From Lentisphaeria bacterium (GTDB lineage: Bacteria; Verrucomicrobiota; Lentisphaeria; Victivallales; JAADHT01), in NCBI GenBank assembly GCA_015486135.1, contig WFSE01000051.1:1-42690 (forward strand): a DNA stretch of 42,690 nucleotides. The letters are read 5' to 3'. Made by a program: the position numbers and the translations under genes. The notes under the pieces were generated by a model, which was not told the origin of the DNA, searched no databases, and was given only the letters and a program-made list of their open reading frames with translations. Position 1 is the stretch's first letter, and every line of letters begins with the position of its first letter. Of this stretch, positions 15,267 to 42,690 are shown piece after piece.

Positions 15267-16838
15267 TCAACCCGCGTAATTCGCGGGTTGTATTCCAAGA
15301 CGCTTGATGGCGTAGTGTATTATTCTCGGCGTGGTTTGGAGGACCCGAGCGGCGGCGGCGACATTTCCGCGGTGTCTTTTCAACGCGTCGATAATGACTT
15401 CACGTTCGTAAGAGTCCATTAGTTCCTTTAGACTGGCGTTTTCCCTTGGGATCAAGGGCGTGTTCGTCTGGTCGTCCGTCTGCAGCGATGGAGGCAGCCC
15501 ATATCCGTGTATGACATCGTCCTGACTAGTTAGCACCGCGCGTTCTATGCAGTTTTCGAGTTCCCTCACGTTGCCCGGCCAATGGTACGCCATCATCATG
15601 TTTATAGCGGCGGTGGAGATCCTACGGACATTCTTCCCATACGCCTCATTGTATTTTTGAATGAAGCTGTCGGCTAGGAGCATTATATCGGAGCGGCGAT
15701 CGCGCAAAGCCGGCAAATGGATGGGAAACACGTTTAGGCGATAATACAGGTCCTCCCGGAAAGCGCCTTCCGCCATGGCTTCCTCCAAATCGCGGCTCGT
15801 CGCCGCGATGATACGGACGTTCACGGGGATAGGCTCGTTCGAGCCGACACGCTCCACGACGCGCTCCTGCAGAGCCCTAAGCAGCCTGACCTGGACAGAT
15901 GGCGCGATATCCCCGATTTCGTCGAGGAACAGCGTGCCCCCATTGGCGGCTTCGAACCGCCCTTTGCGTTGCCGTGTCGCTCCACTGAAAGAGCCTTTCT
16001 CGTGTCCAAAAAGCTCGCTTTCTATAAGGTTTTCCGGAAGCGCGGCGCAGTTGACGCACACGAACGGGTTGGCGCGTCTTGAGCTACTGTAGTGGATAGC
16101 CCTCGCTACAAGTTCCTTTCCCGTTCCGGACTCGCCCCGGATTAGCACGGTGGCGACGCTGTCCGCGACTTGCGCGATCTGGTCGTAAACCTGCAGCATC
16201 GCGCCACATCTTCCTATCATATTCCCCGGATTGTAATGCTCACCAAGTTGCTGGCGCAGGCGGAGGTTCTCCTCCTGCAGACTTTCCCGCTCCTCGATCT
16301 CCTCGCGAATACCCGCCACCCCCTCGGCGAGTATATCGCCAATGAGCTTGAAGAAGTGGAGTTCCCGGTTTAGCGCATCCATTGTGGCGGTGGGGCGGTA
16401 TATGCTCATGGTGCCGATCACGGCCCGCTGATGGATGACCGGGACGCAAAGGAACGCCGTTTTATCCTTCGGCCGGTATTTTGTCTTGTTGAGAAAAAGT
16501 GGTTCCTTCGAGATGTCCTCGACCACAACCGGAGCGCCTGTCTCCACTACCCGCCCCACAATCCCCTCGCCAGGAGCATATTCCCCCCTACGACGCTCCT
16601 CCTCGCTCATCCCGCAAGCGGCCTCGACAACGAACACATCGCTATCGAAACGCCGCAACGCGAAAGCCGCGCGTTCGACTCCTATCTCCTCCTCGAGAAT
16701 CGACAAAACGTCATTGAGTAGCGACGACACCTCGTGCCGCCGGGCGACCCTATGGGAAATCCGGTATAAGACACTCAGCTCCCGTTCCGGATCCAACTCC
16801 AGAGCCCGCTGAATAATAGGCGAATGCTTTATTGTCAT
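15267..16838 (-). CDS. NifA-like sigma-54-dependent activator: GAF, AAA+ and Fis-type HTH
   Basis: The protein has 523 residues: a GAF sensor (about 30-190), a sigma-54-interacting AAA+ domain (about 205-430) and a C-terminal Fis-type helix-turn-helix ([20 protein letters not shown]). Walker A is GESGTGKE and Walker [12 protein letters not shown]. The sigma-54-contacting loop reads GSFSGA instead of the canonical GAFTGA. The start at ATG 16838 is supported by AGGAGG nine bases upstream; an upstream in-frame extension to 17000 is low-complexity and probably not coding. The first 13 residues and the start codon are encoded by a copy of a dispersed repeat (16801-16849). It lies divergent to amtB and the PII gene, whose promoter has a sigma-54 signature, so a nitrogen-control role like NifA is likely. 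What the GAF domain binds is unknown. Confidence 0.88.
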
Positions 16839-16849
16839 TGGGCTAACCC
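16801..16849. repeat. Dispersed repeat copy forming the start of the NifA-like gene
   Basis: Read on the minus strand, this segment contains TAGCCCAATGACAATAAAGC and then CCTATTATTCAGCGGGCTCT. It corresponds base for base with repeat copies at 29333-29375 and 25820-25866 that lie outside genes. The shared part spans the start codon and codons 1-13 of the regulator; the AGGAGG site lies just outside it. Confidence 0.65.
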
Positions 16850-16932
16850 TCCTCTTACCCTTCGCGGCCTCCGCGTCTTTGCGAGGCAATTTCTTTTTCT
16901 TTCCGTCTTTTCCAACCACCCGCATCGCTGGA

Positions 16933-17131
16933 GACACGGAGGCACTGAGAAGATGAGATCGCTGAAACGGACTCCAGTCTTCGACTGCCTTCCGTTCCAT
17001 CGATGTTCTATTTAGTTTTCTCCTCTCTTACTCTCCAATAAAGCCATGTATGAAATAATCAGGAACCGAAGGTTGCTGTTTATTTCATACATCTCCGCAT
17101 TCTCTCTTCTCCGTGCCTCTAGCGAAGCGGG
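16933..17131. repeat. Gene-free upstream region with degenerate repeats (second repeat family, copy 2)
   Basis: GGAGACACGGAGGCACTGAG at 16933-16952 resembles the 'cacggaggcac' simple-sequence repeats scattered in many bacterial genomes. 17053-17131 is a copy of the segment at 13438-13524. These lie between the NifA-like gene and amtB. An in-frame extension of the regulator through the first block is therefore judged spurious. Confidence 0.45.
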
Positions 17132-28193: not shown

Positions 28194-29345
28194 ATGATAA
28201 ACCGAGCCGTTCAAAAACAGATAAAGGAGCGTCTGGGGGCCTATCCAGCGGTGGCTCTTCTAGGGCCGCGTCAATGCGGGAAGACCACGCTGGCTCAGGC
28301 CATAGGGGGGATTTACTTCGATCTCGAGCAAGAGTCCGACCGTTTGCGCCTAGACCTAGAGTGGGACAACCTAGTGTCTGGCGATGAACTCATCATTCTA
28401 GATGAGGCCCAGTCCTGGCCGGAAGTTTTCCCGAGGCTTCGCGGGACAATCGACGGTGACCGCGGCCGAAAAGGGCGATTCCTCCTTTTGGGCTCCGTGT
28501 CGCCATCGCTCATGCCCCACGTTTCGGAATCACTAGCGGGCCGTCTGTCTTTGGTGGAACTCTCTCCTTTCCTGTTCTCCGAGCTAACGACGGAGGAGTT
28601 CCGCCAGCGGCACTGGTTGCGCGGAGGCTATCCCGAGGGTGGCTTGCTCGATCCCAAGCGATACCCTCGGTGGCAAATCGACTACTTGGCGCTCCTGGCA
28701 CAGCGCGATCTCCCAACGTGGGGACTCCCCGCCAAGCCGCAGGTAACGGATCGCCTGCTACGAATGCTGGCCGCCTCGCACGGGCAGATATGGAACGCGG
28801 CCCAACTAGGCCAGAGTCTGGGGATATCCTATCACACGGTCAACAACTACCTCGACTACCTCATAGGAGCCTTTTTGCTGCGGCAACTCCCGGCCTACCA
28901 AACAAACGTCAGAAAACGCCTCGTAAAGAGACCAAAGCTCTACTGGCGCGACACGGGCCTCCTTCACGCGCTACTGAGCACACCCGACGAACAAGCATTG
29001 CTCATGCAACCTTGGGTCGGCGCAAGCTGGGAAGGATACGTAATCGAGCAGGTGCTGGGAGAGCTTTCCTCGCGGGGGCATAGTTTTACCGCATACTACT
29101 TTAGAACCGCGGACCAATACGAGTTGGACCTTGTTTTGGACTTCGGGAAGGACATCTGGGCTATAGAGGTAAAGCTTACCTCGTCGCCCTCGACCGATGA
29201 CATAGCGCGCCTGAACAAGACCGCCGACATCATCAAAGCCTCTCGGCGCTTCCTCCTCTCGCGGACCAAGAACCCGGCGGGAAACAATTACTGTCTTTCC
29301 TGCGACCTGCCAGACTTCCTCAACCATTTAGGGCCCGCTGAATAA
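28194..29345 (+). CDS. AAA ATPase with DUF4143 domain, copy 1
   Basis: The protein has 383 residues. An N-terminal P-loop ATPase (LLGPRQCGKTTLAQAIGG; Walker B LIILDEAQSWPEVFP; VSPSLMPHVSESLAGR) is followed by a winged-helix-like part (SLGISYHTVNNYLDYLIGAFL) and a C-terminal DUF4143/PD-(D/E)XK-like domain (YELDLVLDFGKDIWAIEVKL). The ELD...AIEVK pattern fits a nuclease-type fold, but no function is established for this abundant family. No ribosome site is seen; the start lies directly after a conserved hairpin. The final residues LGPAE and the stop are encoded inside an 83-bp repeat (29327-29409). A second full copy lies convergent at 29433-30587 and a miniature copy at 30729-30821. Confidence 0.85.
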   Translation: MINRAVQKQIKERLGAYPAVALLGPRQCGKTTLAQAIGGIYFDLEQESDRLRLDLEWDNLVSGDELIILDEAQSWPEVFPRLRGTIDGDRGRKGRFLLLGSVSPSLMPHVSESLAGRLSLVELSPFLFSELTTEEFRQRHWLRGGYPEGGLLDPKRYPRWQIDYLALLAQRDLPTWGLPAKPQVTDRLLRMLAASHGQIWNAAQLGQSLGISYHTVNNYLDYLIGAFLLRQLPAYQTNVRKRLVKRPKLYWRDTGLLHALLSTPDEQALLMQPWVGASWEGYVIEQVLGELSSRGHSFTAYYFRTADQYELDLVLDFGKDIWAIEVKLTSSPSTDDIARLNKTADIIKASRRFLLSRTKNPAGNNYCLSCDLPDFLNHLGPAE

Positions 29346-29432: not shown

Positions 29433-30587
29433 TCAGCAGGTTTTAATCATAGTCAACATGTCTTTCAACGTGATTGCGGTTACCTTGTCCGAGAGTCTGT
29501 ATGTCTCGTCGCCAGGATACACAATATAGGCGCTGTTCAGGTTTAGGTCTTTCATGATTTCGCTCAATCCCCTGGATGGTTTCGGAGCTGGAGAGCGCTT
29601 CACCTCAATGGCAGTTAGATTCGAGGAGTTTTCAATGAGCAGATCAACTTCCGCGCCGGCGTGCGTTCGATAAAAATAGGCTTGTTGATAATCAGAATCC
29701 AAGCTCGCGCATATTTGCTCGATGACCCACCCCTCGTATGAAGCGCCGACAATGGGGTGTCCCGCTAAAGCATCCATCGAGTCGATCCGCAAAAGGACGT
29801 GCAGCAACCCAGTGTCGCGAATATAGATTTTAGGTGTTTTAACCAATCGCTTAGCGACGTTACTGAAGTATGGCTTGAGTTGCCGCACTAGAAAGGTGCT
29901 TTCCAGAATCGACAAATACCGTTTTATAGTGTGTGGGCTGACGCCGAAGTTCGACGCGTATTTCGAGGAATTCAATATTTGACCGTTGTTGTGCGCCAAC
30001 ATTTCCCAAAAACGTCTTAATTGAATGGAGGGCACCTGAACTCCCAGAGCGGGAAGATCACGCTCCAGATAGGTGGCGATAAACGCGCTCGACCAACGAT
30101 ACGCCGCCTTATCCGTCCTTGCCAAATAGCTGTCCGGGAATCCCCCCCTCAGCCAAAGTTTACTCCAATCATCCACCTCCAAACATAGAAATGGCCCCAG
30201 TATTTCATAGTAAATTCGTCCGGCAAGCGTTTCGGAACTTTGTTTCAGTAACTCGGGGCTAGCCGATCCCAGCAACAGGAAATGCCCGTTGCCTCCATAT
30301 TCGTCAACCAATCCCCTTATGACTGGAAAGAGCTCGGGTTTGCGTTGCACCTCGTCTATTATAACCAGCTTGCCTTTATGGTCGCGGAGATAATACTCGG
30401 GAGTTTCCAATCTGTTGTAGTGTTCGATGAGCTCCAAATCAAGGTATATGGAATCGGACTTGCTCAACGAGGCTATTCTTTTCGCCAAGGTCGTCTTCCC
30501 GACTTGCCTCGCCCCCAACAAGCCGACCACGGGAAATTCCGTCAACAATTCCGTAATCCTTGTTTCAGCTATCCGATTTATGTACAT
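29433..30587 (-). CDS. AAA ATPase with DUF4143 domain, copy 2
   Basis: This 384-residue homologue of copy 1 is arranged convergent to it. Walker A is LLGARQVGKTTLAKRIA and Walker B LVIIDEVQRKPELFP, followed by LLLGSASPELLKQSSETLAGR. The central part is YLERDLPALGVQVPSI and NFGVSPHTIKRYLSILEST, and the DUF4143 end is AGAEVDLLIENSSNLTAIEV-KRS. The ATG at 30587 follows GGAGGG five bases upstream, so unlike copy 1 it has a normal ribosome site. The AEVD...AIEVK residues again suggest a degenerate or active PD-(D/E)XK-type site. Such proteins are numerous in gut anaerobes and often near mobile DNA; the function is unknown. Upstream lies an inverted repeat, TTGCATT-GTG-AATGCAA (30623-30639), that may be an operator. 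Confidence 0.86.
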   Translation of the reverse strand: MYINRIAETRITELLTEFPVVGLLGARQVGKTTLAKRIASLSKSDSIYLDLELIEHYNRLETPEYYLRDHKGKLVIIDEVQRKPELFPVIRGLVDEYGGNGHFLLLGSASPELLKQSSETLAGRIYYEILGPFLCLEVDDWSKLWLRGGFPDSYLARTDKAAYRWSSAFIATYLERDLPALGVQVPSIQLRRFWEMLAHNNGQILNSSKYASNFGVSPHTIKRYLSILESTFLVRQLKPYFSNVAKRLVKTPKIYIRDTGLLHVLLRIDSMDALAGHPIVGASYEGWVIEQICASLDSDYQQAYFYRTHAGAEVDLLIENSSNLTAIEVKRSPAPKPSRGLSEIMKDLNLNSAYIVYPGDETYRLSDKVTAITLKDMLTMIKTC

Positions 30588-30845: not shown

Positions 30846-31101
30846 GGGGACAGGTTAATAATCCCTTTGGGTGGTTAGGGTTTTCTTTATGGCCCCGCAT
30901 CCACTACGTCCACCTCCCCAAAAAACGCCGCATCATTACCAATGGGTCAACCTTGAAATGGTCCCGCCAAGGGAAGGCATAATCGCGGAAGCCCGCCCGC
31001 CGAAGCGTCCGTTGCAACATGGGCGCCAACCCGCACTTGAAAAAAATTCCTGTTTTTTCCTCTTGGCGGCTTGACCGTTTCAAAATGGCCCATATTGTTT
31101 A
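30846..31101. other. Gene-free stretch upstream of rex
   Basis: The stretch starts with GGGGACAGGTTAATAATCCC (30846-30865), related to the repeats at 26903 and 28031. The rest is GC-rich with scattered inverted pieces such as GCCAAGGG. A 67-codon frame here has no ribosome site and low-complexity, proline-rich content, so I do not call it. It likely holds the upstream part of the hydrogenase operon promoter. Confidence 0.35.
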
Positions 31102-31115
31102 GTGAAAGTTTTCAC
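31102..31115 (+). promoter_or_regulatory. Rex operator in the rex-hyd promoter
   Basis: GTGAAAGTTTTCAC is a perfect 14-bp palindrome and matches the Rex half-sites GTGAA-N4-TTCAC. It sits 37 bases before the rex start, between a TTGTTT (-35-like, 31095-31100) and a GTTAAT (-10-like, 31119-31124). Rex bound here would block the promoter, giving autoregulation and NADH-dependent control of the hydrogenase genes. Confidence 0.72.
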
Positions 31116-31151
31116 AGTGTTAATCATATCACACGTCGGAGAATGCGCCCC

Positions 31152-31796
31152 ATGAACAATCTAGACGGCATTTCTGAGAGGACGATCGAGCGTTTGGCGC
31201 TCTACAGGCGCCTTTTGTCGGGCTTGCTGGAGAAGGGGTTGGAGCACATATACTCCCATCAGCTGGCCGAGTTCCTAGGAAACACGCCTGCCCAAGTGCG
31301 CCGGGACATAATGAGCATCGGCCATGTCGCGAGGTCCAAGAAGGGATACGACATCCCCGAATTGCTAACGCACATAGACTCAATCCTCTCCTCTGGCGGG
31401 GACCATAGGATAGCGTTGATTGGGATAGGGAATCTAGGCCGAGCGATACTTTCGTATTTCAATCAGCAGCATTCGGCCTTGAGGATAGTTGCGGCGTTCG
31501 ACAACGACGAGACGCGTGTGAACCGTGTAATTTCGGGGTGTCGCTGTTATCCGATGGATGAATTGAAGGAGAAGGTTGAGGGAGAGGAGATAACGCTTGG
31601 GATAATAACGGTTCCTGGCCCGAGTGCGCAAATAGTGGCCGACGCTCTGGCCGCGGCCGGAATAACCGGAATACTTAATTTCGCTCCCGTGCCGCTAAAA
31701 ACACCCGAAGACGTTTATGTGGAAAGAATAGATATTACGACAGCGATAGAGAAAGTCGCCTTTTTCGCCGGCAAGTGGCGGCAAAAAGGAACCTAA
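31152..31796 (+). CDS. rex: Redox-sensing transcriptional repressor Rex
   Basis: This 214-residue repressor leaves its operators when the NADH/NAD ratio rises. The N-terminal winged helix (SERTIERLALYRRLLSGLL, IYSHQLAEFLGNTPAQVRRDI) is followed by an NAD-binding Rossmann domain with GIGNLGRAILSYF and AAFDNDETRVNR, then the C-terminal domain-swapping helix. The start at ATG 31152 fits the family; an in-frame start at 31071 would extend through the operator and is unlikely. A weak GGAG site lies 10 bases upstream. It is the first gene of the hydrogenase cluster, 30 bases before hydC, and has a matching operator upstream. Confidence 0.94.
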   Translation: MNNLDGISERTIERLALYRRLLSGLLEKGLEHIYSHQLAEFLGNTPAQVRRDIMSIGHVARSKKGYDIPELLTHIDSILSSGGDHRIALIGIGNLGRAILSYFNQQHSALRIVAAFDNDETRVNRVISGCRCYPMDELKEKVEGEEITLGIITVPGPSAQIVADALAAAGITGILNFAPVPLKTPEDVYVERIDITTAIEKVAFFAGKWRQKGT

Positions 31797-31826: not shown

Positions 31827-32300
31827 ATGAAAAGCCAGACGGAAAAAATATTGGCGAAGTACAAAGGGGGCGGGCGAGACAGTCTGATTCCGTTGCTCCA
31901 AGAGGTACAGGAAGCGGAGGGCTACATATCCCGGGAGCGCGTGAAGGAGATTGGCGAATTACTGAATCTGCCTACGGGAAAAATCTACGGAGTCGCTACG
32001 TTCTACAATCAGTTCCGGTTCAGCGCTCAAGGGAAATACCACATCCAAGTATGCCGCGGAACGGCGTGCCACGTCAAGGGCTCCGCCAACGTCCTGCAGG
32101 CATTGGAGTCGGAAATCGGGATTGAGGCTGGCAACACCGACAGAGACGGATTGTTCAGCTTGGAGGTTGTCGCGTGTATTGGTGCGTGCGGTTTGGCACC
32201 GGTGATAAGCGTCAACGGACGGTTTCATGCCGGAGTCACGCCAGAGGAAATTCCTGAAATCATTGAAAGCTACAGAAAAGAATTCGGAGGTGCGGAATGA
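31827..32300 (+). CDS. hydC: NAD-linked [FeFe] hydrogenase, NuoE-like gamma subunit
   Basis: This 157-residue thioredoxin-like ferredoxin binds one [2Fe-2S] cluster through CRGTAC and CIGAC (Cx4C...Cx3C). The helical N-terminus (LIPLLQEVQEAEGYIS) and YGVATFYNQFRF are typical of NuoE/HydC. In trimeric bifurcating hydrogenases it relays electrons next to the flavin subunit. The start has AGGAGG upstream, and the ATGA overlap with hydB couples their translation. Confidence 0.93.
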   Translation: MKSQTEKILAKYKGGGRDSLIPLLQEVQEAEGYISRERVKEIGELLNLPTGKIYGVATFYNQFRFSAQGKYHIQVCRGTACHVKGSANVLQALESEIGIEAGNTDRDGLFSLEVVACIGACGLAPVISVNGRFHAGVTPEEIPEIIESYRKEFGGAE

Positions 32301-34246
32301 AAGACGCCGCTAACGTTAATTTGCTGCGGGAGTTGTCGCACGAATACCAATGCGGCGGAGCGGTCGCGACTCCGGAGATGATTGAGGCGGCGGCCAAATA
32401 CCGTTACGAAACGGGCGCCGACGCACCAAGAATCCTTGTCGGCGCCGCTACCTGCGGCTTGAGCGCCGGCGCGGACAAGGTATTAGAGGCGGCGGAGAAA
32501 TACGCCGCCGACACCGGGACGGAAATAGACATCATCCAGGTTGGCTGTATCGGCTTGTGCGCCGAGGAACCGATAATGGATGTCCATATCCCCGGAAAAA
32601 GACGCGTTTCGTTCAAACAAGTCACCCCGGAAGCAGTTCCAGGAATATTGTCGTCGATGATTGAGAAAAACGAGCCCGTCCGCGAAAACCTTCTCGGGCA
32701 GTTCGACGGAAAAGCCGAAGCTTGGGACGGCGTGCCTGGGATAACGGAACACCCGTTTTTCGCGCGCCAGACGCGGTGGGTTTTGGAAAATTGCGGAATA
32801 ATCGACCCGGCGTCAATCAACGAATATCTCGCCGCTGGCGGATACAAGGCGCTGGCCAAGGCGCTCCACACGAAAGTGCCGTCGGAGGTCTGCGACGAAG
32901 TCGAGGAGAGCGGGCTCCGCGGACGCGGCGGGGGCGGATTCAAGACCGGTGTCAAATGGAAATTCGCGCTCAACACGCCCAGCGACCAGAAATATATAAT
33001 TTGCAACGCCGACGAAGGCGATCCCGGGGCGTTTATGGACCGGGCGATAATAGAAGGCGATCCCCATCGACTCCTCGAAGGCCTCGCGATTGGCGCATAC
33101 GCGATCGGCGCGTCCAAGGCCTACATCTATATCCGCGCCGAATATCCCCTGGCTATAGAAAGGTTAAAAACGGCTATAGCGCAGGCGGAAGAATGCGGTC
33201 TTATCGGCGACAACATACTCGACAGCGGTTTCAACTTGAGAATCGTCGTGAAAATGGGTGCCGGAGCGTTCGTCTGCGGCGAGGAAACCGCGTTGATACA
33301 CAGCATAGAGGGCAAGCGCGGGATGCCCCGTCCACGCCCCCCCTTCCCCGCGGTCAGCGGGCTGTTCGGCAAACCGTCGATTATAAACAACGTCGAGACC
33401 TTGGCCAACGTTCCCGCGATTGTCGCGAAAGGCAAGGAATGGTTCTCCTCGCTAGGAACGGACGGTAGCAAGGGAACCAAGGTTTTCGCGCTTAGCGGTA
33501 AAATCAAGCGCACGGGATTGGTCGAAGTCGCTATGGGGACGAAGCTCCGCGAGATCATTTTCGACATCGGTGGCGGCATAGAGCACGATAACAAGTACAA
33601 GGCGGTGCAGATCGGCGGTCCCTCCGGAGGATGCATCCCCGAACAGCATCTCGACATCGAAATAGACTACGAATCCCTCAAGACAGTGGGCGCCATGATG
33701 GGCTCCGGGGGGCTTGTCGTCATGGATGAATACACGTGCATGGTTGACGTGGCGAAGTTTTTCATGGACTTCATCCAGCGGGAGAGTTGCGGTAAATGCA
33801 TCCCGTGCCGCGAGGGAACCAAACAAATGCTCGCGATACTCGAGGACATAACCAGCAAACAAGGAAAGAGCGAGACGCACAGCCCCCTGAAAAGGATGAA
33901 GGGCGTGCTCCATCTGAACCGCCTAGCGGAAGTAATCAAGGAAACGAGCCTCTGCGGGTTGGGGCAGACAGCGCCAAATCCCGTCCTCAGCACCCTGAGG
34001 TGGTTCCGCGACGAATACGACGCGCATATTTACGAGAGGAAATGCGCGGCTGGCGTATGCAAGGAGTTGATCACCTATCAAATCGAAGAGGACAAGTGCG
34101 TGGGGTGCACGGTTTGCGCTAGAAAATGCCCCACGGGAGCGATCAAAGGAACGAAAAAAGCTCCCCATTACATTGTCGAGGACAAGTGTATTGGGTGTGG
34201 AGCGTGCATGGAAGCGTGCCGTTTCGGCGCGGTCGTCATCCGTTAA
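32297..34246 (+). CDS. hydB: NAD-linked [FeFe] hydrogenase, NuoF-like beta (flavin) subunit
   Basis: The protein has 649 residues. Domains in order: thioredoxin-like [2Fe-2S] part (ATCGLSAGA, VGCIGLCAEEP, about 45-105); NADH/FMN-binding NuoF core (GLRGRGGGGFKTGVKW, CNADEGDPGAFMDR, GAGAFVCGEETALI); SLBB-like part; [4Fe-4S] site ESCGKCIPCREGT; and a C-terminal two-cluster ferredoxin (CVGCTVCARKCP, CIGCGACMEAC). It oxidises or reduces NAD and hosts the flavin of bifurcation in HydABC enzymes. The extra N- and C-terminal iron-sulfur domains are characteristic of HydB as opposed to NuoF of complex I. It overlaps hydC by four bases. Confidence 0.95.
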   Translation: MKDAANVNLLRELSHEYQCGGAVATPEMIEAAAKYRYETGADAPRILVGAATCGLSAGADKVLEAAEKYAADTGTEIDIIQVGCIGLCAEEPIMDVHIPGKRRVSFKQVTPEAVPGILSSMIEKNEPVRENLLGQFDGKAEAWDGVPGITEHPFFARQTRWVLENCGIIDPASINEYLAAGGYKALAKALHTKVPSEVCDEVEESGLRGRGGGGFKTGVKWKFALNTPSDQKYIICNADEGDPGAFMDRAIIEGDPHRLLEGLAIGAYAIGASKAYIYIRAEYPLAIERLKTAIAQAEECGLIGDNILDSGFNLRIVVKMGAGAFVCGEETALIHSIEGKRGMPRPRPPFPAVSGLFGKPSIINNVETLANVPAIVAKGKEWFSSLGTDGSKGTKVFALSGKIKRTGLVEVAMGTKLREIIFDIGGGIEHDNKYKAVQIGGPSGGCIPEQHLDIEIDYESLKTVGAMMGSGGLVVMDEYTCMVDVAKFFMDFIQRESCGKCIPCREGTKQMLAILEDITSKQGKSETHSPLKRMKGVLHLNRLAEVIKETSLCGLGQTAPNPVLSTLRWFRDEYDAHIYERKCAAGVCKELITYQIEEDKCVGCTVCARKCPTGAIKGTKKAPHYIVEDKCIGCGACMEACRFGAVVIR

Positions 34247-34272: not shown

Positions 34273-35994
34273 ATGTTTGAAATAGAAGCCAACAACAGGA
34301 CGATAAAAGCGGAAAAGGGAGACACGATTCTAGCGGCCTTGAAAAGGGCTGGCATAAACGTTCCGACGTTATGCCACATGGAGGGCCTCCCGCCTAGCGG
34401 CGCATGCAGAATTTGCGTGGTCGAAGTCGAAGGCAAGGGCCTGATCCCCAGCTGCTCTTTCCCCGCCAGCGAGGGAATGAAAATCAAAACGAACTCGCCT
34501 AAATGCATCCAAGCGAGAAAAACCATCATCGAGTTGCTTCTCGCGAACCATCCCGACGACTGCCTCTACTGCGTCAGGAATCTCAACTGCCAGCTGCAAA
34601 CCCTGGCGGAGGAATACGGAATCAGAGAACGCAGGCTAACCGCCAAACGCGAGGAGCATACCGTCGATCTGACAAGCCCCGCGATTGTCCGCGACCAGTC
34701 CAAGTGCATCCTGTGCGGAAAATGCGTCAGGGTCTGCGAGGAAATCCAAAATGTCAGCGCCATAGATTTCGCCGGAAGAGGAAGCAAAACCGTCATCTCC
34801 ACGGCATTCGACGAGAACCTGAACGTCTCAAGCTGTATCAACTGCGGACAGTGCATACTGGTCTGCCCGACCGGGGCGCTCCGCGAGAAAAGCTACATAA
34901 AAGAGGTGCGGGCGGCCCTCTCCGATCCGGAGAAGCATGTGGTGATCCAGCACGCTCCCGCGATTTCCGTCACCATCGCCGAGGAATTCGGCGCTCCAAG
35001 CGGCACAGACGCGGACGGAATGCTGGTCACCGCGCTAAAACGAATGGGTTTCGACCGCGTTTTCGACACCTCGTTCTCGGCCGACCTCACCATCATGGAG
35101 GAGGCGTCGGAACTGGTCCACCGGATAACCAACGGCGGCAAACTGCCAATGATGACAAGCTGTTCTCCAGGCTGGATCAAATACGTGGAGCAGTTCTATC
35201 CCGAAATGCGGGAGCATCTCTCGACGTGCAAAAGCCCTCAACAGATGCTCGGCGCGGTGATAAAAAGCTATTACGCCAAGCGCAACGGAATAAAACCGGA
35301 AAACATTTTCAGCGTTTCCGTGATGCCTTGCACCGCTAAAAAATTCGAGATCCAGCGCCCGGGAATGGGACGAAACAACATCTTCGATGTCGACGCCGTA
35401 CTCTCCACGCGGGAACTGGCCCGCCTTGTCAGGATGTATGGCATCGAGTTCAATAATCTCCCCGTCTCCTACGCCGACAACCCATTTGGGGAACGCACCA
35501 CTGCCGGAAAGCTCTTCGGAGCGTCGGGCGGAGTTATGGAAGCGGCTGTTAGAACCGCCCATTTCCTTATCACCGGGAAAGAGATGGACGACCTGAAGCT
35601 CGAGGCCACGCGCGGCTTGGATGGGATCAAAGAGGCGAAACTCGACATCGGCGGGAAAACGGTCGGAATCGCCGTCGTCAACGGTGTCGGCAACGCCGCC
35701 AAGCTCCTCGATCAAATCAAAGACGGCCGCGACGACCTAGTTTTTATCGAGGTGATGACATGCCCCGGAGGATGCGTCGCCGGCGGAGGACAGCCCCTCG
35801 GAACCGACAACGCTAAAATCCGCGCGCGTCTGGGAGCGCTATACGCCATCGACGAAAACGAGGAAGTGCGCGTCTCCCACGGGAACACCGAGATCAAACG
35901 CCTATACGACGAGTTTCTAGGCGAGCCACTGGGACACGAAAGCCACCGTTTGCTGCACACCTCCTACGTCGACAGGGACGAAGTGCTAAAGTAA
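34273..35994 (+). CDS. hydA: [FeFe] hydrogenase catalytic alpha subunit
   Basis: This 573-residue catalytic subunit reduces protons or oxidises H2. N-terminal clusters: a [2Fe-2S] domain (CHMEGLPPSGACRIC), a His-ligated [4Fe-4S] (HPDDCLYCVRNLNC) and two [4Fe-4S] (CILCGKCVRVCE, CINCGQCILVCP). The H-cluster motifs are TSCSPGW (L1), MPCTAKKFE (L2) and EVMTCPGGCVAGGGQP (L3), the last two fully canonical. In L1 the second Cys of TSCCP is Ser, a variant I recall from NAD(P)-linked enzymes. With hydC and hydB it makes a trimeric, probably electron-bifurcating, cytoplasmic enzyme using NADH and ferredoxin. AAGGAA lies nine bases before ATG 34273. Confidence 0.96.
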   Translation: MFEIEANNRTIKAEKGDTILAALKRAGINVPTLCHMEGLPPSGACRICVVEVEGKGLIPSCSFPASEGMKIKTNSPKCIQARKTIIELLLANHPDDCLYCVRNLNCQLQTLAEEYGIRERRLTAKREEHTVDLTSPAIVRDQSKCILCGKCVRVCEEIQNVSAIDFAGRGSKTVISTAFDENLNVSSCINCGQCILVCPTGALREKSYIKEVRAALSDPEKHVVIQHAPAISVTIAEEFGAPSGTDADGMLVTALKRMGFDRVFDTSFSADLTIMEEASELVHRITNGGKLPMMTSCSPGWIKYVEQFYPEMREHLSTCKSPQQMLGAVIKSYYAKRNGIKPENIFSVSVMPCTAKKFEIQRPGMGRNNIFDVDAVLSTRELARLVRMYGIEFNNLPVSYADNPFGERTTAGKLFGASGGVMEAAVRTAHFLITGKEMDDLKLEATRGLDGIKEAKLDIGGKTVGIAVVNGVGNAAKLLDQIKDGRDDLVFIEVMTCPGGCVAGGGQPLGTDNAKIRARLGALYAIDENEEVRVSHGNTEIKRLYDEFLGEPLGHESHRLLHTSYVDRDEVLK

Positions 35995-36013: not shown

Positions 36014-38074
36014 ATGAGAAAGGTTTCCGAAGAGACCCTGGATAAAGCGGACAAGAGCTGTCTCAAGCTGATCACGACCATCGGCGACAGATGCAAAATG
36101 TGCTACACATGCGTCCGCGACTGTCCGGCCAAGGCCATTCGGATAATGAACGGCCAAGCGGAGGTCATCGCCGACCGGTGCGTTGGATGCGGAAACTGCG
36201 TGCGCGTCTGCAGCCAGAACGCCAAGCAGTATTACAACTCCATCGCGGCGGTGAAATCGCTCCTGGCCTCGCGCGGAAAAACCGCCGCGATTATCGCGCC
36301 GAGTTTCCCCGCCGAGTTCATGGATATCTCCCCTCCAAGATTTGTCGGTATGCTCAGAAAATGCGGGTTCGATATCGTTGGCGAAGTGGCGTTCGGCGCG
36401 GATCTCGTGTCGATGGAATACAACCGCCTCCTAGCTGACAATCCGCAGCGCCCGTATATCGGCAGCACCTGCCCGGGAATCGTCGCGTTCGTGGAAAAAT
36501 ACCATCCGGATTTGTTGGAGAATCTAGCGCCCGTGGCATCGCCCATGGTCGCCGCCGCGCGGGCCATCAAGCTCCTCCATGGCGCCAGCACAAAAGTCGT
36601 ATTCATCGGCCCGTGCATCGCCAAAAAAGCCGAGGCCCAGCGCCATCACGATGAAGACCTTATCGAAGCCGTACTGACTTTCGGCGAACTTCGAACCCTC
36701 TTCAACGAATTGCGTATATCGCGGAAAACGACCGAGGACAGCGCCTTCGATCCGCCGCGCCCGGGATTAGGCGCGCTTTACGCGCTCAGCGGCGGGATAC
36801 TACAATCCGCGGACATGCGCGAGGACCTGCTCGATTCCGAGGTTATCTGCGCCGACGGCAAAAACAACTTCGTCGAAGCGCTCGCCGAATTGGAGAACAA
36901 GTCTTTCTCGCCCAAATTGCTGGAGTTGCTCTGTTGCAAAGGGTGCATCGCCGGTGCCGGAATGAGCGCGAAAACCTCCGCCTTCGCTAGACGCAACGCC
37001 GTCAGCGCATACGTCAGAAACCGAGTCGCGGAAGACGCGCGCGGCGCGGAAGTCGCGGAAAAAACTTATGATAAAATACTCGACGAGATAAACATGGCAG
37101 TCTCTTTCGAGAACGACGACCACCGTTTGCCGGCGCCATCCGACGACGAGATCAAGGCGATCCTGAAACGTCTGGGAAAACGAACTCCGGAAGACGAGCT
37201 CGACTGCGAGGCGTGCGGATACAAAACCTGCCGCGAACACGCCATAGCCATCCACAAGGGCTTGGCGGAGAACGAGATGTGCCTCCCGTTCACCATCGAA
37301 CGCCTCAAGGACTCCCTCGAGGAGGTTCGGGTCTCGCACGACCAGCTGGAAGAAACGAAACAGGCCCTTTTCAATGCGGAGAAACTGGCGAGCATGGGCC
37401 AGCTTTCCGCGGGAATCGCGCATGAGATTAACAATCCGCTCGGCGTGATCCTACTCAACGCCAAGATCATGCTCGACTTCATGGACAATAAGAGCGAGGA
37501 TTACGAGGACATCAAACTTATCGTCGAGCAAGCCGAACGATGCAAAAAAATCGTCTCGGGCCTCTTGGATTTCGCCAGAAAAAACAAGGTTATACCCCAA
37601 GTCGTGGACATCCTGGCGTTTATCAAAAACTGCATGCGCTCGGTAATCACCGCCGACAATGTCATGATCAATGTCGATTCCTCCGCAATCAACGACCCGG
37701 TGTTCGAATTCGACAAGGACCAGATGACACAGGTCTTCACCAACCTAATCGTAAACGCCACCGAGGCGATGCAGCCCAAAGGCGGAAAAATAGACATCAC
37801 CCTCACCGACACGCCGGACCAATTAAGGATTTCGGTCGCCGACAACGGCCCTGGAATCCCCGAGGAGTATAGAAACAAGATATTCGAGCCGCTCTTCACA
37901 ACTAAGCAAATCGGCAAGGGCACCGGCCTCGGACTCGCCGTCACTTACGGCATCATAAAAATGCACCACGGACAGATAACGCTCAAATCCAACACCGACC
38001 CGGACGCCGGGCCGACTGGATCCGAATTCATAATCTCAATCCCTAGAAAAGGAGATAACACAAATGCGGGATGA
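36014..38074 (+). CDS. Sensory [FeFe]-hydrogenase-like protein fused to a histidine kinase
   Basis: The protein has 686 residues and no membrane segment. Order: two [4Fe-4S] clusters ([23 protein letters not shown]; about 28-75); an H-cluster-type domain (about 85-360) with divergent motifs STCPGIVAF (L1), GPCIAKKAE (L2) and [13 protein letters not shown] (L3); a further [4Fe-4S]-type motif CEACGYKTC plus a later Cys (about 397-425); a coiled linker; and a histidine kinase ([19 protein letters not shown] with the phospho-His, [29 protein letters not shown]). The cluster-binding Cys are kept, but catalytic surroundings are changed, as in group C/D sensory hydrogenases. It probably senses H2 or redox state and signals to the next two proteins. 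TTGGAGGG precedes the start. Confidence 0.9.
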
Positions 38075-38474
38075 AAAAATCAGATACGACGGCAAGCGGG
38101 CTCTGCTCGTCGACGACGACATCGATTTCCTCGAACAACACAAATTCGGCCTCGAAAGCATCGGATTCGATGTCATCACCGCCGAATCGCAGGCGGACGC
38201 CGAAAAACTCATCGACACCGAACGCTACGACATCGCCGTCTTAGACCTCATGATGGAAAACGAGGATAGCGGCTTCGTCCTAGCCTACAAAAGCAAGAAA
38301 AACAACCCGGACACGCCCGTAATCATCGCCACCTCGGTAACCAACGAGACCGGGATGAAATTCGATGCCGTGACCGAGGAGTCGCGCGACTGGGTCAAAG
38401 CTGATATAATGCTAGATAAGAATCTTCGATTCGAGCAACTCGAAAGGGCGATAAACACCCTTTTGCCGAAATAG
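38064..38474 (+). CDS. Single-domain response regulator (receiver only)
   Basis: This 136-residue CheY-like receiver has an acidic pocket LLVDDDIDFL, phospho-acceptor Asp in AVLDLMMENED, switch region VIIATSVTNE and conserved Lys in MLDKNL. There is no output domain. It overlaps the hydrogenase-kinase gene by 11 bases and has AAAGGAG upstream, so it is the likely phosphate acceptor of that kinase. It may act as an intermediate in a relay or bind a protein partner. Confidence 0.9.
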   Translation: MRDEKIRYDGKRALLVDDDIDFLEQHKFGLESIGFDVITAESQADAEKLIDTERYDIAVLDLMMENEDSGFVLAYKSKKNNPDTPVIIATSVTNETGMKFDAVTEESRDWVKADIMLDKNLRFEQLERAINTLLPK

Positions 38475-38541
38475 TCCGTACGCGTGCGGTATATGGACAC
38501 CGCGCGGACAATCGGAGAAAAATTTTGACGGAGGCCATATT

Positions 38542-39699
38542 ATGACTACGCTAAAGGTGCTGGCCATCGACGACGAACCCGGAATGCGCCGGGGAGTTGT
38601 TAAGACCCTCAAAAGATTCTCCGTCGAACTACGCGAACTCGACATCACCGTTGGATTCGAGGTTGCAGAGGCCGAAAATGGCTCGGAGGCCCTCGAGGCC
38701 CTCGAAGCCAACGCCTTCGACATCGTCCTCCTCGACTACAAACTACCCGATATCAACGGTCTCGAAATCCTGAACAAAATAAAAGAGAAAAAATACGACC
38801 TCCTCACAATCATGATGACCGCCTACGCCTCGCTCGAAGTCGCCGTCAGCGCCACCAAAAACGGCGCGTTCGACTTCCTGGCGAAACCATTCTCCCCGGA
38901 CGAGCTCAGGGCGGTAACCCGAAAGGCCGCTTCCGCCCTCATGCTCCTGCGGCACGCGCGGAAACTCGACGAAGAAAAGAAGCAAATCCGGTTCCAGTTC
39001 CTTTCGGTCTTGGCGCACGAACTCAAGGCCCCGCTAAACGCCATCCAAGGATATCTGGATATCATGGACGACCGCATCGCCGGAGACGACATCGAAAAAT
39101 ACGACAAAATGATCAAGCGCTCTCTTATTCGCATCAACGGAATGCGCAAACTTATCTTCGACCTCCTCGATCTCACCCGAATCGAGTCCGGAAAGAAAAA
39201 ACGCGACATCCGCGAAATCGACATCCTGGACGCCGCGCACAGCGCCATCGAAAGCGTCGCGCCGCTCGCGAAGGAACGGAACATCACCGTCAATCTCAAC
39301 GCGGAACCGCCCGTCCAGTTCCAAGGCGATATCGGCGAATTCGAAATCGTCTTCAACAACCTCGTGTCGAACGCCGTCAAATACAACAAGGAAGGCGGCA
39401 AGGTCGATATCGACATCACTAAAACCGACGACGACACGGTGGAAATCAAAGTCGCCGATACCGGCATCGGGATGAACGAGGAGCAGCTCTCGAAGCTTTT
39501 CAGGGAGTTCGTCCGGTTCAAAAACGAGAAAACACGTGGCGTGGAAGGCAGCGGCCTCGGACTATCCATACTGCAACGCATCGCCAAGCTCTACAACGGC
39601 GATGTCAAGGTCGAAAGCGAGGAGGACGCGGGCACGACGTTCACTTTCACCGCGAAATCCGCGGAAACACAGGCGGACAACAAGGAACAATCGACATGA
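38542..39699 (+). CDS. Hybrid regulator: N-terminal receiver plus histidine kinase
   Basis: The protein has 385 residues. Residues 1-130 form a receiver (VLAIDDEPGMRRG, IVLLDYKLPDINGLEIL, MMTAYASLEVAVSAT, FLAKPF). After a coiled linker comes a HisKA domain (FLSVLAHELKAPLNAIQGYL) and a HATPase (NLVSNAVKYNKEGG, VADTGIGMNEEQ, GSGLGLSILQRI). It has no sensor or DNA-binding domain, so it is an inner element of a phosphorelay. It follows the single receiver gene by 67 bases and overlaps hydG by four bases, which places it in the hydrogenase operon. GGAGG lies upstream of the start. Confidence 0.92.
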   Translation: MTTLKVLAIDDEPGMRRGVVKTLKRFSVELRELDITVGFEVAEAENGSEALEALEANAFDIVLLDYKLPDINGLEILNKIKEKKYDLLTIMMTAYASLEVAVSATKNGAFDFLAKPFSPDELRAVTRKAASALMLLRHARKLDEEKKQIRFQFLSVLAHELKAPLNAIQGYLDIMDDRIAGDDIEKYDKMIKRSLIRINGMRKLIFDLLDLTRIESGKKKRDIREIDILDAAHSAIESVAPLAKERNITVNLNAEPPVQFQGDIGEFEIVFNNLVSNAVKYNKEGGKVDIDITKTDDDTVEIKVADTGIGMNEEQLSKLFREFVRFKNEKTRGVEGSGLGLSILQRIAKLYNGDVKVESEEDAGTTFTFTAKSAETQADNKEQST

Positions 39700-41105
39700 C
39701 AAAGCGTGAACTATCGGAAAAATGCGTCGATTTTATAAACGACGACAAACTTGACAGCCTCGCCGCGAAAACCGCGGAAGACCCGGCGCGCGTCAGGGAC
39801 GCCATCGCCAAAAGTATGGCGAAAGAACCCCTCGACACAACGGAAACCGCCGCGCTTCTAGCGGTCCGCTCGGAAGACCTGCTCGAGGAGATTTTCGAGG
39901 CCGCCAGGAAACTCAAACGCGACGTTTACGGAAATCGAATCGTTATCTTCGCACCGCTCTATATCGGCAATTTCTGCGTCAACGATTGCAAATACTGCGC
40001 CTTCAGACGCTCGCTCAGGGAGACGGTCCGGAAAAGCCTCGACGACAACGAAATCCGCCAACAGGTCGAGGCCCTCGAAGATGCCGGGCACAAACGACTT
40101 ATCCTCGTTTACGGCGAACACCCCGACTACACCCCGGAATACATCGCCCACACCGTCCGGGAAGTCTATTCCGTCAGAAAAGGACACGGCGAAATCCGCA
40201 GAGTCAACATAAACGCTGCCCCGATGGACCGCGAGGGATACAAAATCGTCAAGGACGCCGGAATCGGCACATACCAGATATTCATGGAGACATACAACCA
40301 CGAGGCGTATAAAAAGTTCCATCCGACGAACACGCACAAAGGTGATTACCTCTACCGCTTGGACGGACTCACAAGAGCCTACGAGGCGGGATGCGACGAC
40401 GTCGGCATCGGCGCCCTTTTCGGACTCTACGACTGGCGCTTCGAAGTCCTCGCCATGGTCGAACACTCGCGGTTCCTGATGGACCGTTTCGGTTGCGGCC
40501 CACATACCGTCAGCTTCCCGAGAATCAGACCGGCGCACGGCGTCCAACTCGATGAACGCTACATGGTCTCCGACGACGATTTCAAAAAACTCGTCGCCAT
40601 ACTTCGGCTGTCCATCCCATACACGGGAATGATCCTCACCGCCCGCGAAACCCCGGAAATCCGGCGCGAAGTAATGGAGTTCGGCGTCTCTCAAATCGAT
40701 GCCGGCACTAGAATCGAGCTCGCGGGATACACAAAAGACACCCCGCAGAAACTCAACGAGGAGCAGTTCAGCATCGGCGACACCAGAAGCATGGATGAAA
40801 TCCTCCGCGAACTCCTCCAAAACGGATACATCCCGAGCTTCTGCACCTCCTGCTACCGCCAAGGCCGTACCGGAGAGCAGTTCATGGAATTCGCCATCCC
40901 GGGATTCATCGAACGATTCTGCACCCCGAACGCCCTCCTCACCCTCGAGGAATATCTGCTTGACTACGCCTCCGACGAGACGCGGGCCATAGGCGAAAAA
41001 CTCATACAGCGGGAACTCGAACGCTACGAGCATCCCAACAGGGACAAATTAATCGAGAACCTAGATAAAACTAAAACCGACAATCAAAGGGATCTCTACT
41101 TTTGA
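39696..41105 (+). CDS. hydG: [FeFe] hydrogenase maturase HydG (tyrosine lyase)
   Basis: This 469-residue radical SAM enzyme cleaves tyrosine to supply CO and cyanide ligands as an iron-cysteine synthon for the H-cluster. The radical SAM motif is CVNDCKYCAF (Cx3Cx2C). The C-terminal auxiliary cluster motif CTSCYRQGRTGEQFM is intact, which separates it from ThiH. NINAAPMDREGYKIVKDAGIGTYQIF and HTVSFPRIRPAHG are family stretches. It overlaps the upstream kinase gene (ATGA) and hydE downstream, so it is co-expressed with the structural genes. Confidence 0.96.
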   Translation: MTKRELSEKCVDFINDDKLDSLAAKTAEDPARVRDAIAKSMAKEPLDTTETAALLAVRSEDLLEEIFEAARKLKRDVYGNRIVIFAPLYIGNFCVNDCKYCAFRRSLRETVRKSLDDNEIRQQVEALEDAGHKRLILVYGEHPDYTPEYIAHTVREVYSVRKGHGEIRRVNINAAPMDREGYKIVKDAGIGTYQIFMETYNHEAYKKFHPTNTHKGDYLYRLDGLTRAYEAGCDDVGIGALFGLYDWRFEVLAMVEHSRFLMDRFGCGPHTVSFPRIRPAHGVQLDERYMVSDDDFKKLVAILRLSIPYTGMILTARETPEIRREVMEFGVSQIDAGTRIELAGYTKDTPQKLNEEQFSIGDTRSMDEILRELLQNGYIPSFCTSCYRQGRTGEQFMEFAIPGFIERFCTPNALLTLEEYLLDYASDETRAIGEKLIQRELERYEHPNRDKLIENLDKTKTDNQRDLYF

Positions 41106-42190
41106 AACATATCGTTGAAATAGATAAAAAGGTCGTGGCCAGAGCCAAACAGCTCCTGGCGATGGACTCCGCGGATGCCGCGGCGGACCTCTTCCGACAG
41201 GCGTACGGCGTCAAACTCGACACCGTGGGCCCCACCGTCTATCTCCGCGGACTGGTCGAATTCAGCAATATCTGCTCCCGCAACTGCCTCTACTGCGGCA
41301 TCCGGAAAAGCAATCGCAACACGCCACGGTTCCGCCTCTCAAAAGAGGAGATACTGGACGCGGCCCGGTGGACCTACCAAAACCAATACGGCTCGCTGGT
41401 ACTCCAGTCCGGCGAACGGAACGACGACGAATTCATCGACTTCGTCGAGGATACCCTCCGCGAAATCAAAAAAATCGGCGGCGGCGCGCTCGGTGTCACA
41501 ATCTCCCTCGGAGAACAGACACGCGAAACATATCAACGCTGGTTCGACGCCGGCGCACACCGATACCTGCTCAGAATCGAAACCACGAACCCGACCCTTT
41601 ACGCCATACTACACCCGGACGGCGACAACCTCGAGAAACGAGCGCGCTGTCTGACCGCCCTCCGAGATGTAGGCTACCAAGTCGGCACCGGGGTCATGAT
41701 CGGGCTGCCCGAACAGACTATCGACGACTTGGCGCGCGATATCGCGTTCTTTAAAGCCATGGATATCGACATGATTGGCATGGGGCCGTTTATTCCGCAC
41801 CACGACACCCCGCTCGCGGATCTCGCGGAATCCTTCGACCCCGAAAAACAGTTCAACTTGGCGCTCAGAATGATCGCCGCCACAAGAATCATCCTCGAAG
41901 ACGTGAACATCGCCGCCGCCACCGCCCTCCAAGCGCTGAAAGAGGACGGACGCGAACGGGCCCTCAAGGCCGGCGCGAACATCATCATGCCGAACGTAAC
42001 CGCCACGAAATACCGGAGAGCCTACCAGCTATACGACAACAAGCCTTGCCTCGACGAGAATTCCAACCAGTGCAAGACATGCCTCGCCAACCGCATCCTC
42101 TCGCAAGGCGAATCCATCGGTTTGGGACAGTGGGGCGACGCCCCCCATTTCGCCGCGCGCGTGAACCCCGAAAAACGGAAGCTGTCATGA
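41102..42190 (+). CDS. hydE: [FeFe] hydrogenase maturase HydE
   Basis: This 362-residue radical SAM protein processes the HydG product on the way to the di-iron subcluster. The cluster motif is CSRNCLYCGIRKSN. Further landmarks are VLQSGERNDDEFIDF, LSLGEQTRE-type TISLGEQTRETY, YLLRIETTNPTLYAILHP, IGMGPFIPHHDTPLA and ATKYRRAYQLYDNKPC. The start is TTG at 41102, overlapping the hydG stop by four bases; an ATG at 41162 would remove conserved N-terminal residues. The ATGA overlap with the next gene shows translational coupling. Confidence 0.95.
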   Translation: MKHIVEIDKKVVARAKQLLAMDSADAAADLFRQAYGVKLDTVGPTVYLRGLVEFSNICSRNCLYCGIRKSNRNTPRFRLSKEEILDAARWTYQNQYGSLVLQSGERNDDEFIDFVEDTLREIKKIGGGALGVTISLGEQTRETYQRWFDAGAHRYLLRIETTNPTLYAILHPDGDNLEKRARCLTALRDVGYQVGTGVMIGLPEQTIDDLARDIAFFKAMDIDMIGMGPFIPHHDTPLADLAESFDPEKQFNLALRMIAATRIILEDVNIAAATALQALKEDGRERALKAGANIIMPNVTATKYRRAYQLYDNKPCLDENSNQCKTCLANRILSQGESIGLGQWGDAPHFAARVNPEKRKLS

Positions 42191-42690
42191 AAAATCAACG
42201 CGTCGAAAAAGACATGATTGGAGAAATGGCGATTCCGGAAAACGCCCTCTACGGCATCCATTCCGCCCGCGCCGCCGCGAATTTCGCGGCCGCCGGAAGA
42301 CCTGTGGCGCCGGAGTTGATCCACGCGTTCGGATTCGTCAAACTGGCGTGCGCCATTACGAACCACGACCTGGGCTTCATCGACGACCCGACCTTCCAAG
42401 CCATACAACAGGCCTGCGAGGAACTCGCGGAAGGCGAACTCGACGAGCACTTCGTAACCGACGCCCTCCAAGGCGGCGCCGGAACCTCCACCAATATGAA
42501 CGTCAACGAGGTCATCGCCAACCGAGCCCTCCAAATCCTAGGGAAAAACCCCGGCGACTACGACGCCATACACCCCATCGAGACCGTCAATCTGCACCAG
42601 TCCACCAACGACACCTACCCTACCGCGCTCAAAGTCGCCGCGATATTCGCGATTAAGGAACTCGAGAAAAAACTCGTCGCGCTCATCGAA
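42187..42690 (+). CDS. aspA: Aspartate ammonia-lyase (3' truncated by window)
   Basis: The first 168 residues of a fumarase/aspartase-superfamily enzyme that deaminates aspartate to fumarate and ammonium are present. The start is MKNQRVEKDMIGEMAIP, then NALYGIHSARAAANFA, the substrate-binding GGAGTSTNMNVNEVIANRA and LHQSTNDTYPTALKVAA. TSTNMN favours aspartase or fumarase C; GEMAIPENALYGI and the hyd context favour aspartase. The signature loop GSS...P lies beyond the window. The ATGA overlap with hydE places it in the maturation operon, a neighbourhood I recall from clostridial hyd operons. It may supply ammonium for the H-cluster bridgehead amine (inference). Confidence 0.88.
   Translation, partial: MKNQRVEKDMIGEMAIPENALYGIHSARAAANFAAAGRPVAPELIHAFGFVKLACAITNHDLGFIDDPTFQAIQQACEELAEGELDEHFVTDALQGGAGTSTNMNVNEVIANRALQILGKNPGDYDAIHPIETVNLHQSTNDTYPTALKVAAIFAIKELEKKLVALIE

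Follow-up and report, generated by a model that had tools for sequence, protein, structure and literature searches.

A kinase-bearing sensory [FeFe] hydrogenase encoded with a lone receiver and a receiver-kinase in a hydrogenase operon: a candidate phosphorelay with HydABC as its probable target

The locus lies towards the end of a 42,690-nucleotide stretch of DNA from a Lentisphaeria bacterium (the window, in the following), which derives from a 3.0 Mb MAG of 195 contigs, and forms a plus-strand operon in the order rex-hydC-hydB-hydA-sensor-REC-REC-HK-hydG-hydE-aspA. It opens with rex (31071..31796), which codes for a redox-sensing transcriptional repressor (NCBIfam NF003995, 205.7 bits, above the cut-off), likely starts at a later position near 31143 and is also the first gene in many related operons. 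Pattern search detected a palindrome resembling a Rex operator, TAGTGAAAGTTTTCACAG, at 31100..31117 on the plus strand with two mismatches to TTGTGAANNNNTTCACAA; matches of this type with up to three mismatches occur in the window at chance level (two observed as compared to 1.55 expected), and it is only the position before rex that weakly suggests an operator. The consensus TTGTTAANNNNTTAACAA gave one match in the window, also at chance level, and was rejected as a Rex site. Rex may control transcription of the operon independently of the relay described below and, since it carries no receiver domain, it is not a phosphorelay output. Immediately upstream of the operon lie two convergent genes for AAA_14/DUF4143 ATPases (28194-29345, plus strand, and 29433-30587, minus strand), and 14 kb upstream a GAF-sigma54-Fis activator without a receiver is encoded (15270-17000, minus strand).

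The hydrogenase genes comprise hydC (31827..32300), coding for a NuoE-like [2Fe-2S] subunit (PF01257, 171 bits), hydB (32297..34246), coding for a NuoF-like FMN/FeS subunit (PF01512, PF10589 and Fer4), and hydA (34273..35994), coding for the catalytic subunit of a trimeric [FeFe] hydrogenase (NF040763, 834.6 bits, above the cut-off), the best solved relative of which is HydA1 of T. kivui HydABC (8a6t). The L1 motif of HydA reads TSCSPGW, with Ser at the position of C300 of CpI, beside Pro, a variant shared by 53 of 113 related HydA proteins and by HydA1 of A. woodii. In three related loci (L005:4946-8218, L008 and L020) HydB is a protein of about 1090 amino acids fused to a GltD-like half (Fer4_20 and Pyr_redox_2), which resembles the published sub-type I BfuB.

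The ORF check of the window places three further plus-strand genes between hydA and hydG: the sensor gene (36014..38074), whose product combines, according to Pfam and motifs, 2[4Fe-4S], an H-domain, a C-terminal FeS domain, a coiled coil, HisKA (H470) and HATPase_c; the gene for the lone receiver REC (38064..38474), with phospho-acceptor D61 and PF00072 alone; and the gene for the receiver-kinase REC-HK (38542..39699), with an N-terminal receiver (D65), HisKA (H159) and HATPase_c. Pfam thus agrees with the domain reading of the original prediction, and the ORFs lie exactly where it had placed them. Its description of the genes as overlapping or close is borne out by junctions ranging from -11 to 67 bp: a gap of 19 bp between hydA and the sensor gene, an overlap of 11 bp between the latter and REC, a gap of 67 bp between REC and REC-HK, and overlaps of 4 bp each for REC-HK/hydG and hydG/hydE. 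The window scan detected no terminator-like sites on the plus strand between these genes, and a membrane anchor is not suggested for any of the three relay proteins (highest 19-residue hydropathy 1.41).

The operon continues with the H-cluster maturase genes hydG (39696..41105; TIGR03955, 486.6 bits) and hydE (41102..42190; TIGR03956, 341.9 bits). The earlier remark that co-expression with HydG and HydE would ensure cluster insertion into the sensor carries little weight, given that these maturases serve every [FeFe] hydrogenase in the cell and that a number of sensor/REC-HK pairs are located away from hydEFG. The last gene, aspA (42256..42690, truncated by the window end; PF00206), codes for aspartate ammonia-lyase and recurs within hydEFG maturase clusters (L008, L020, L154, L178 and L248); the enzyme might supply ammonia for assembling the H-cluster. 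The hydF gene of the host is found on another contig (G000 C75, locus L240:694-2356), with the gene for another lone receiver of this family directly downstream, and a receiver is located near hydF in other relatives too (L147).

In the sensor, Pfam recognized Fer4 twice, Fe_hyd_lg_C, FeS (PF04060), HisKA and HATPase_c, with 162 bits for the H-domain (PF02906), and Foldseek matched its model to solved [FeFe] hydrogenases at E ~1e-21. The domain set is identical in 55/55 sensor homologues, all of which possess PF04060, and the domain scan found a PAS domain in none of the 55. Binding of an H-cluster is predicted from the retained cysteine ligands, as C153, C201, C308 and C311 of the H-domain are invariant in these 55 sensors. 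The position of CpI C299 is taken by T152 (S, T or D in most homologues) and that of CpI M353 by G199, replacements expected of sensory enzymes (PMC10055695; PMC8163306). The C-terminal FeS motif is exactly Cx2Cx4Cx16C (residues 398-423) with all four cysteines invariant and, in the AF2 model (pLDDT 87), a single helix (residues 424-489) leads from this domain into the DHp, which makes it a plausible signal path to the kinase. As the C-terminal cluster of TamHydS is not reduced by H2 (PMC13104023), the signal is possibly conformational. The H-domain could also be degenerate, acting as an FeS/redox sensor of the ferredoxin/NADH state and not directly of H2, so that the cassette would couple electron load to the hydrogenase. 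The exchanges T152 and G199, the retention of the C-terminal cluster and the report of group C1 proteins of Hydrogenedentota without recognisable H-cluster motifs (PMC11406978) are compatible with this, whereas the four invariant H-domain cysteines and the finding that TmHydS, despite comparable changes, still turns over H2 (PMC10055695) argue against it, and we regard a purely redox-sensing H-domain as somewhat unlikely.

Judged by its sequence, the sensor belongs to a type already described, the group C sensory [FeFe] hydrogenases (PMC11406978; PMC5037454). It shares with TmHydS the N-terminal 2[4Fe-4S], an H-domain changed at the C299 and M353 positions, the C-terminal Cx2Cx4Cx16C cluster and an operon shared with a group A hydrogenase. 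However, TmHydS (group C M2f) has a PAS domain after the FeS domain, where the model of the window sensor has the helix 424-489, and the window sensor differs further in its complete fused kinase and the downstream relay genes; as PAS is absent from 55/55 sensors, it was not filed as TmHydS-type. A counterpart by published description is BfuT, the kinase-bearing sensor encoded beside bfuA in sub-type V bifurcating hydrogenase clusters, with Caldithrix as example (PMC11406978): here, too, the sensor has a histidine kinase domain, with its gene adjoining bfuA, the same cluster type occurs in Calditrichota (our loci L041 and L048 are from Caldithrix sp., and Caldithrix abyssi reportedly has it), and some Bacteroidota have a second sensor upstream, as in L012 and L047. 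Kinase-bearing BfuT was filed as C3 (PMC11406978), whereas HydDB calls the kinase-linked class C1 and the phosphatase-linked one C3 (PMC5037454). The main text of the BfuT paper contains no mention of a response regulator or receiver, and REC, REC-HK, their wiring and the linkage of REC to hydA are absent there (PMC11406978).

The two proteins encoded downstream of the sensor are Response_reg only (REC) and Response_reg, HisKA and HATPase_c (REC-HK). REC, whose AF2 model has a pLDDT of 90, bears the signature DSGF and TGxxF...W(V/I)KAD; D18, D19, D61, G70 and K119 are invariant in 50 homologues, and D61 and K119 are kept in all 66 sensor cassettes. In REC-HK, D65, K115, H159, N273/N277, G308/G310 and G336/G338/G340 are invariant (50 homologues). 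All four phospho-residues of the relay, H470 of the sensor included, and the kinase boxes are present and invariant or nearly so. Domain scans of 55 sensors, 50 lone RECs and 50 REC-HKs found no DNA-binding or other output domain, and no conserved DNA-binding regulator stands beside the cassette in the loci examined. The claim of a relay lacking a DNA-binding output hence holds for the three relay genes; the operon itself starts with a DNA-binding gene, rex. In loci L024 and L029 (records titled Sumerlaeota and 'bacterium') two separate genes take the place of REC-HK: the one downstream of the sensor codes for a receiver alone, and the one upstream of it for a DHp-only protein, HisKA without ATPase (L024:9685-9990; L029:9697-9969). 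The DHp-only proteins are candidate stand-alone histidine phosphotransferases: lacking an ATPase, they would be limited to handing on phosphate, in keeping with a role in phosphotransfer. An assembly error is not favoured, as two separate records share the layout.

The cassette is conserved. A scan of GTDB genomes yielded 51 loci, mostly at about 50% identity, under record titles including Kiritimatiellota, Lentisphaerae, Calditrichota, Planctomycetes/Phycisphaerae, Aminicenantes, Bacteroidales, Fermentibacteraceae, Hydrogenedentota, Sumerlaeota, Neomarinimicrobiota and others; the closest relative by sensor is locus L003, titled Kiritimatiellota, with a sensor 69% identical. After more genomes and flanks were added, hydA, sensor, REC and REC-HK were contiguous in 60 loci from many phyla, which answers the call of the original prediction for a check of gene-order conservation. 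REC lies 3' of the sensor in most loci; the minority with REC between hydA and the sensor comprises L008, L020, L154, L155, L177 and L179. The module is uncommon, a full-length sensor being present in 12/289 genomes of the window's own phylum and in 2/395, 20/392 and 20/347 genomes of three other groups. The recurrence of the same gene set across many phyla at about 50% identity shows that the arrangement is not due to chance.

The order of phosphotransfer was approached via co-divergence, using partial correlations of domain divergence over 52 cassettes with alignment-based slices and with all other domains and hydA held constant. The REC-HK receiver tracked the DHp of the sensor most closely (partial r 0.47, 5-95% 0.40-0.53) and not the DHp to which it is covalently joined (0.02). 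The lone REC tracked the DHp of REC-HK most closely (0.43, 0.32-0.59), as compared to 0.20 with the sensor DHp, 0.07 with the REC-HK ATPase and -0.10 with hydA. The ranking on the full set was robust to the use of BLOSUM distances and of rank-based correlation. Within the core clade, REC still paired best with the REC-HK DHp, with less certainty; within the non-Bacteroidales subset the link of sensor DHp to REC-HK receiver alone persisted, the signal between REC and the REC-HK DHp being gone, and the Bacteroidales-like subset of nine cassettes was too small. Residue-level mutual information (66 cassettes, effective n about 43) gave no decisive pairing of DHp and receiver. The co-divergence supports a predicted wiring from the sensor DHp to the REC-HK receiver and from the REC-HK DHp to the lone REC. 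Together with the lack of output domains it also lends support to a protein as the target of the relay, one of the two end points that had been proposed.

The lone REC goes with hydA. It was found in 64/64 sensor loci with adjacent hydA and was absent from 18/20 without (Fisher 2e-16, with loci treated as independent although they are not). In the genomes of L150 and L153, where hydA is located on a divergent operon, REC stands directly behind hydA, as predicted before the flanks were fetched, and in L010, where hydA is 7.7 kb from the sensor, hydA is followed by REC and then REC-HK. A sensor-less search, in which the REC family was sought in the window's own phylum and Planctomycetota and hydA was sampled regardless of REC, detected hydA-REC without a full-length sensor, at the thresholds used, in eight genomes (L228, L233, L234, L236, L237, L248, L249 and L294). 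These relatives retain hydC-hydB-hydA-REC, mostly with rex first, and the absence of the sensor corresponds to about four separate losses on a hydA tree shown without support values. In 6/8 of them REC has Glu or Ala instead of Asp61 and an altered acid pocket; the D(S/A/G)GF loop is kept, as is the greater part of the (T/S)G..F...W..AD..R surface. Five of the six belong to one family, so that this decay happened about twice. The phospho-site is intact in L248 and L294, hence loss of the kinases does not always lead to decay of REC. The fact that REC stays with hydA after loss of the phospho-acceptor in six genomes points to a use other than carrying phosphate: the role of the receiver at the hydrogenase seems to outlive phosphorylation, with phospho-control apparently tied to the relay. 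A lone REC in all HydABC-type operons was considered and rejected, as distant hydA operons sampled regardless of REC lack it; in that sample only L294, from the hydA clade of the window, had REC.

From the domains, intact phospho-residues, conserved cassette and REC-hydA linkage read in the sequences of about 100 genomes, and from the statistics behind the wiring, we infer H2 sensing, phosphotransfer and a HydABC target, and we lean, by a little, towards an H2-responsive cytoplasmic His-Asp-His-Asp relay that ends on the receiver of the hydrogenase operon and probably acts on HydABC by contact. Following this, we propose that the H-domain of the sensor would sense H2 or its redox consequence, that the C-terminal FeS domain and the one long helix would set the activity of the sensor's own kinase, and that phosphate would pass from His470 to Asp65 of REC-HK, from there to His159 of REC-HK itself, through phosphotransfer or because its receiver turns that kinase on, and subsequently to Asp61 of the lone REC. 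The lone REC is most likely the output, and would contact HydABC to tune the enzyme to H2/electron load without transcription. In the absence of co-divergence between REC and hydA, this contact is proposed from gene linkage and surface conservation only. That phosphorylated REC binds HydABC and shifts its activity or direction, and that REC serves as a phosphate-independent accessory subunit in sensor-less lineages, is put forward tentatively, with somewhat less than even confidence. A comparable logic is known from the regulatory [NiFe] hydrogenase system HoxBC-HoxJ-HoxA (HydDB group 2b), in which an H2 sensor feeds a histidine kinase controlling a hydrogenase. Both start from a hydrogenase-like H2 sensor and proceed via a histidine kinase to hydrogenase control; however, HoxA is a DNA-binding NtrC-type regulator, whereas the window cassette holds receivers and kinases only, and the cofactor is of the [FeFe] type.

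Alternatively, the relay might end on an orphan DNA-binding regulator, with transcription of the hydrogenase operon as target and the lone REC as a Spo0F- or DivK-like shuttle or phosphate sink. In L166, L185 and L186, REC-sigma54-Fis regulators are encoded next after divergent sister sensors, which shows that a transcriptional output is possible in this sensor family. Of the roughly 40 receiver domains encoded by the host genome, several belong to proteins whose length would allow a DNA-binding output, and sigma-54 activators are encoded as well. Contrarily, REC is kept with hydA in genomes without sensor and kinase, six times without its phospho-acceptor, and the loci examined hold no conserved regulator beside the cassette; we judge an orphan regulator to be unlikely. 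Still less can be said for REC as a feedback inhibitor of a kinase with REC-HK or another partner as the real output: FixT, a stand-alone receiver without output domain in a gas/redox two-component circuit, does inhibit FixL (PMC7078487) and an inhibitor would co-diverge with the REC-HK DHp as REC does, but FixT binds an FeS cluster, its four-cysteine motif is absent from the window REC, a cysteine-free protein linked to hydA and not to a kinase, and REC persists without kinases and is missing from sensor/REC-HK pairs without hydA, which makes a FixT-like role very improbable.

The signal's onward path from sensory [FeFe] hydrogenases is an open question in the cited literature, and for the kinase-bearing type the cassette names candidate partners, wiring and an end point. 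The searchable literature, outside which most subscription journals lie, appears to hold no description of the REC and REC-HK partners, of their wiring or of the end point linked to the hydrogenase. If HydABC is the end point, phosphorylation of a small receiver would let H2 tune the hydrogenase complex quickly, a route of hydrogenase control for which the same literature, again with most subscription journals outside it, held no report. As the cassette is encoded together and its proteins are soluble by prediction, the complete chain is amenable to purification and testing.

Receivers also accompany other HydABC-type operons (L229, L232, L252, L253, L257, and L230, L235, L256), in which genes for a Cache-HAMP or GAF kinase and for one or two lone receivers occur and a DNA-binding regulator was not seen, as if receiver-only control of HydABC-type hydrogenases arose or spread more than once.
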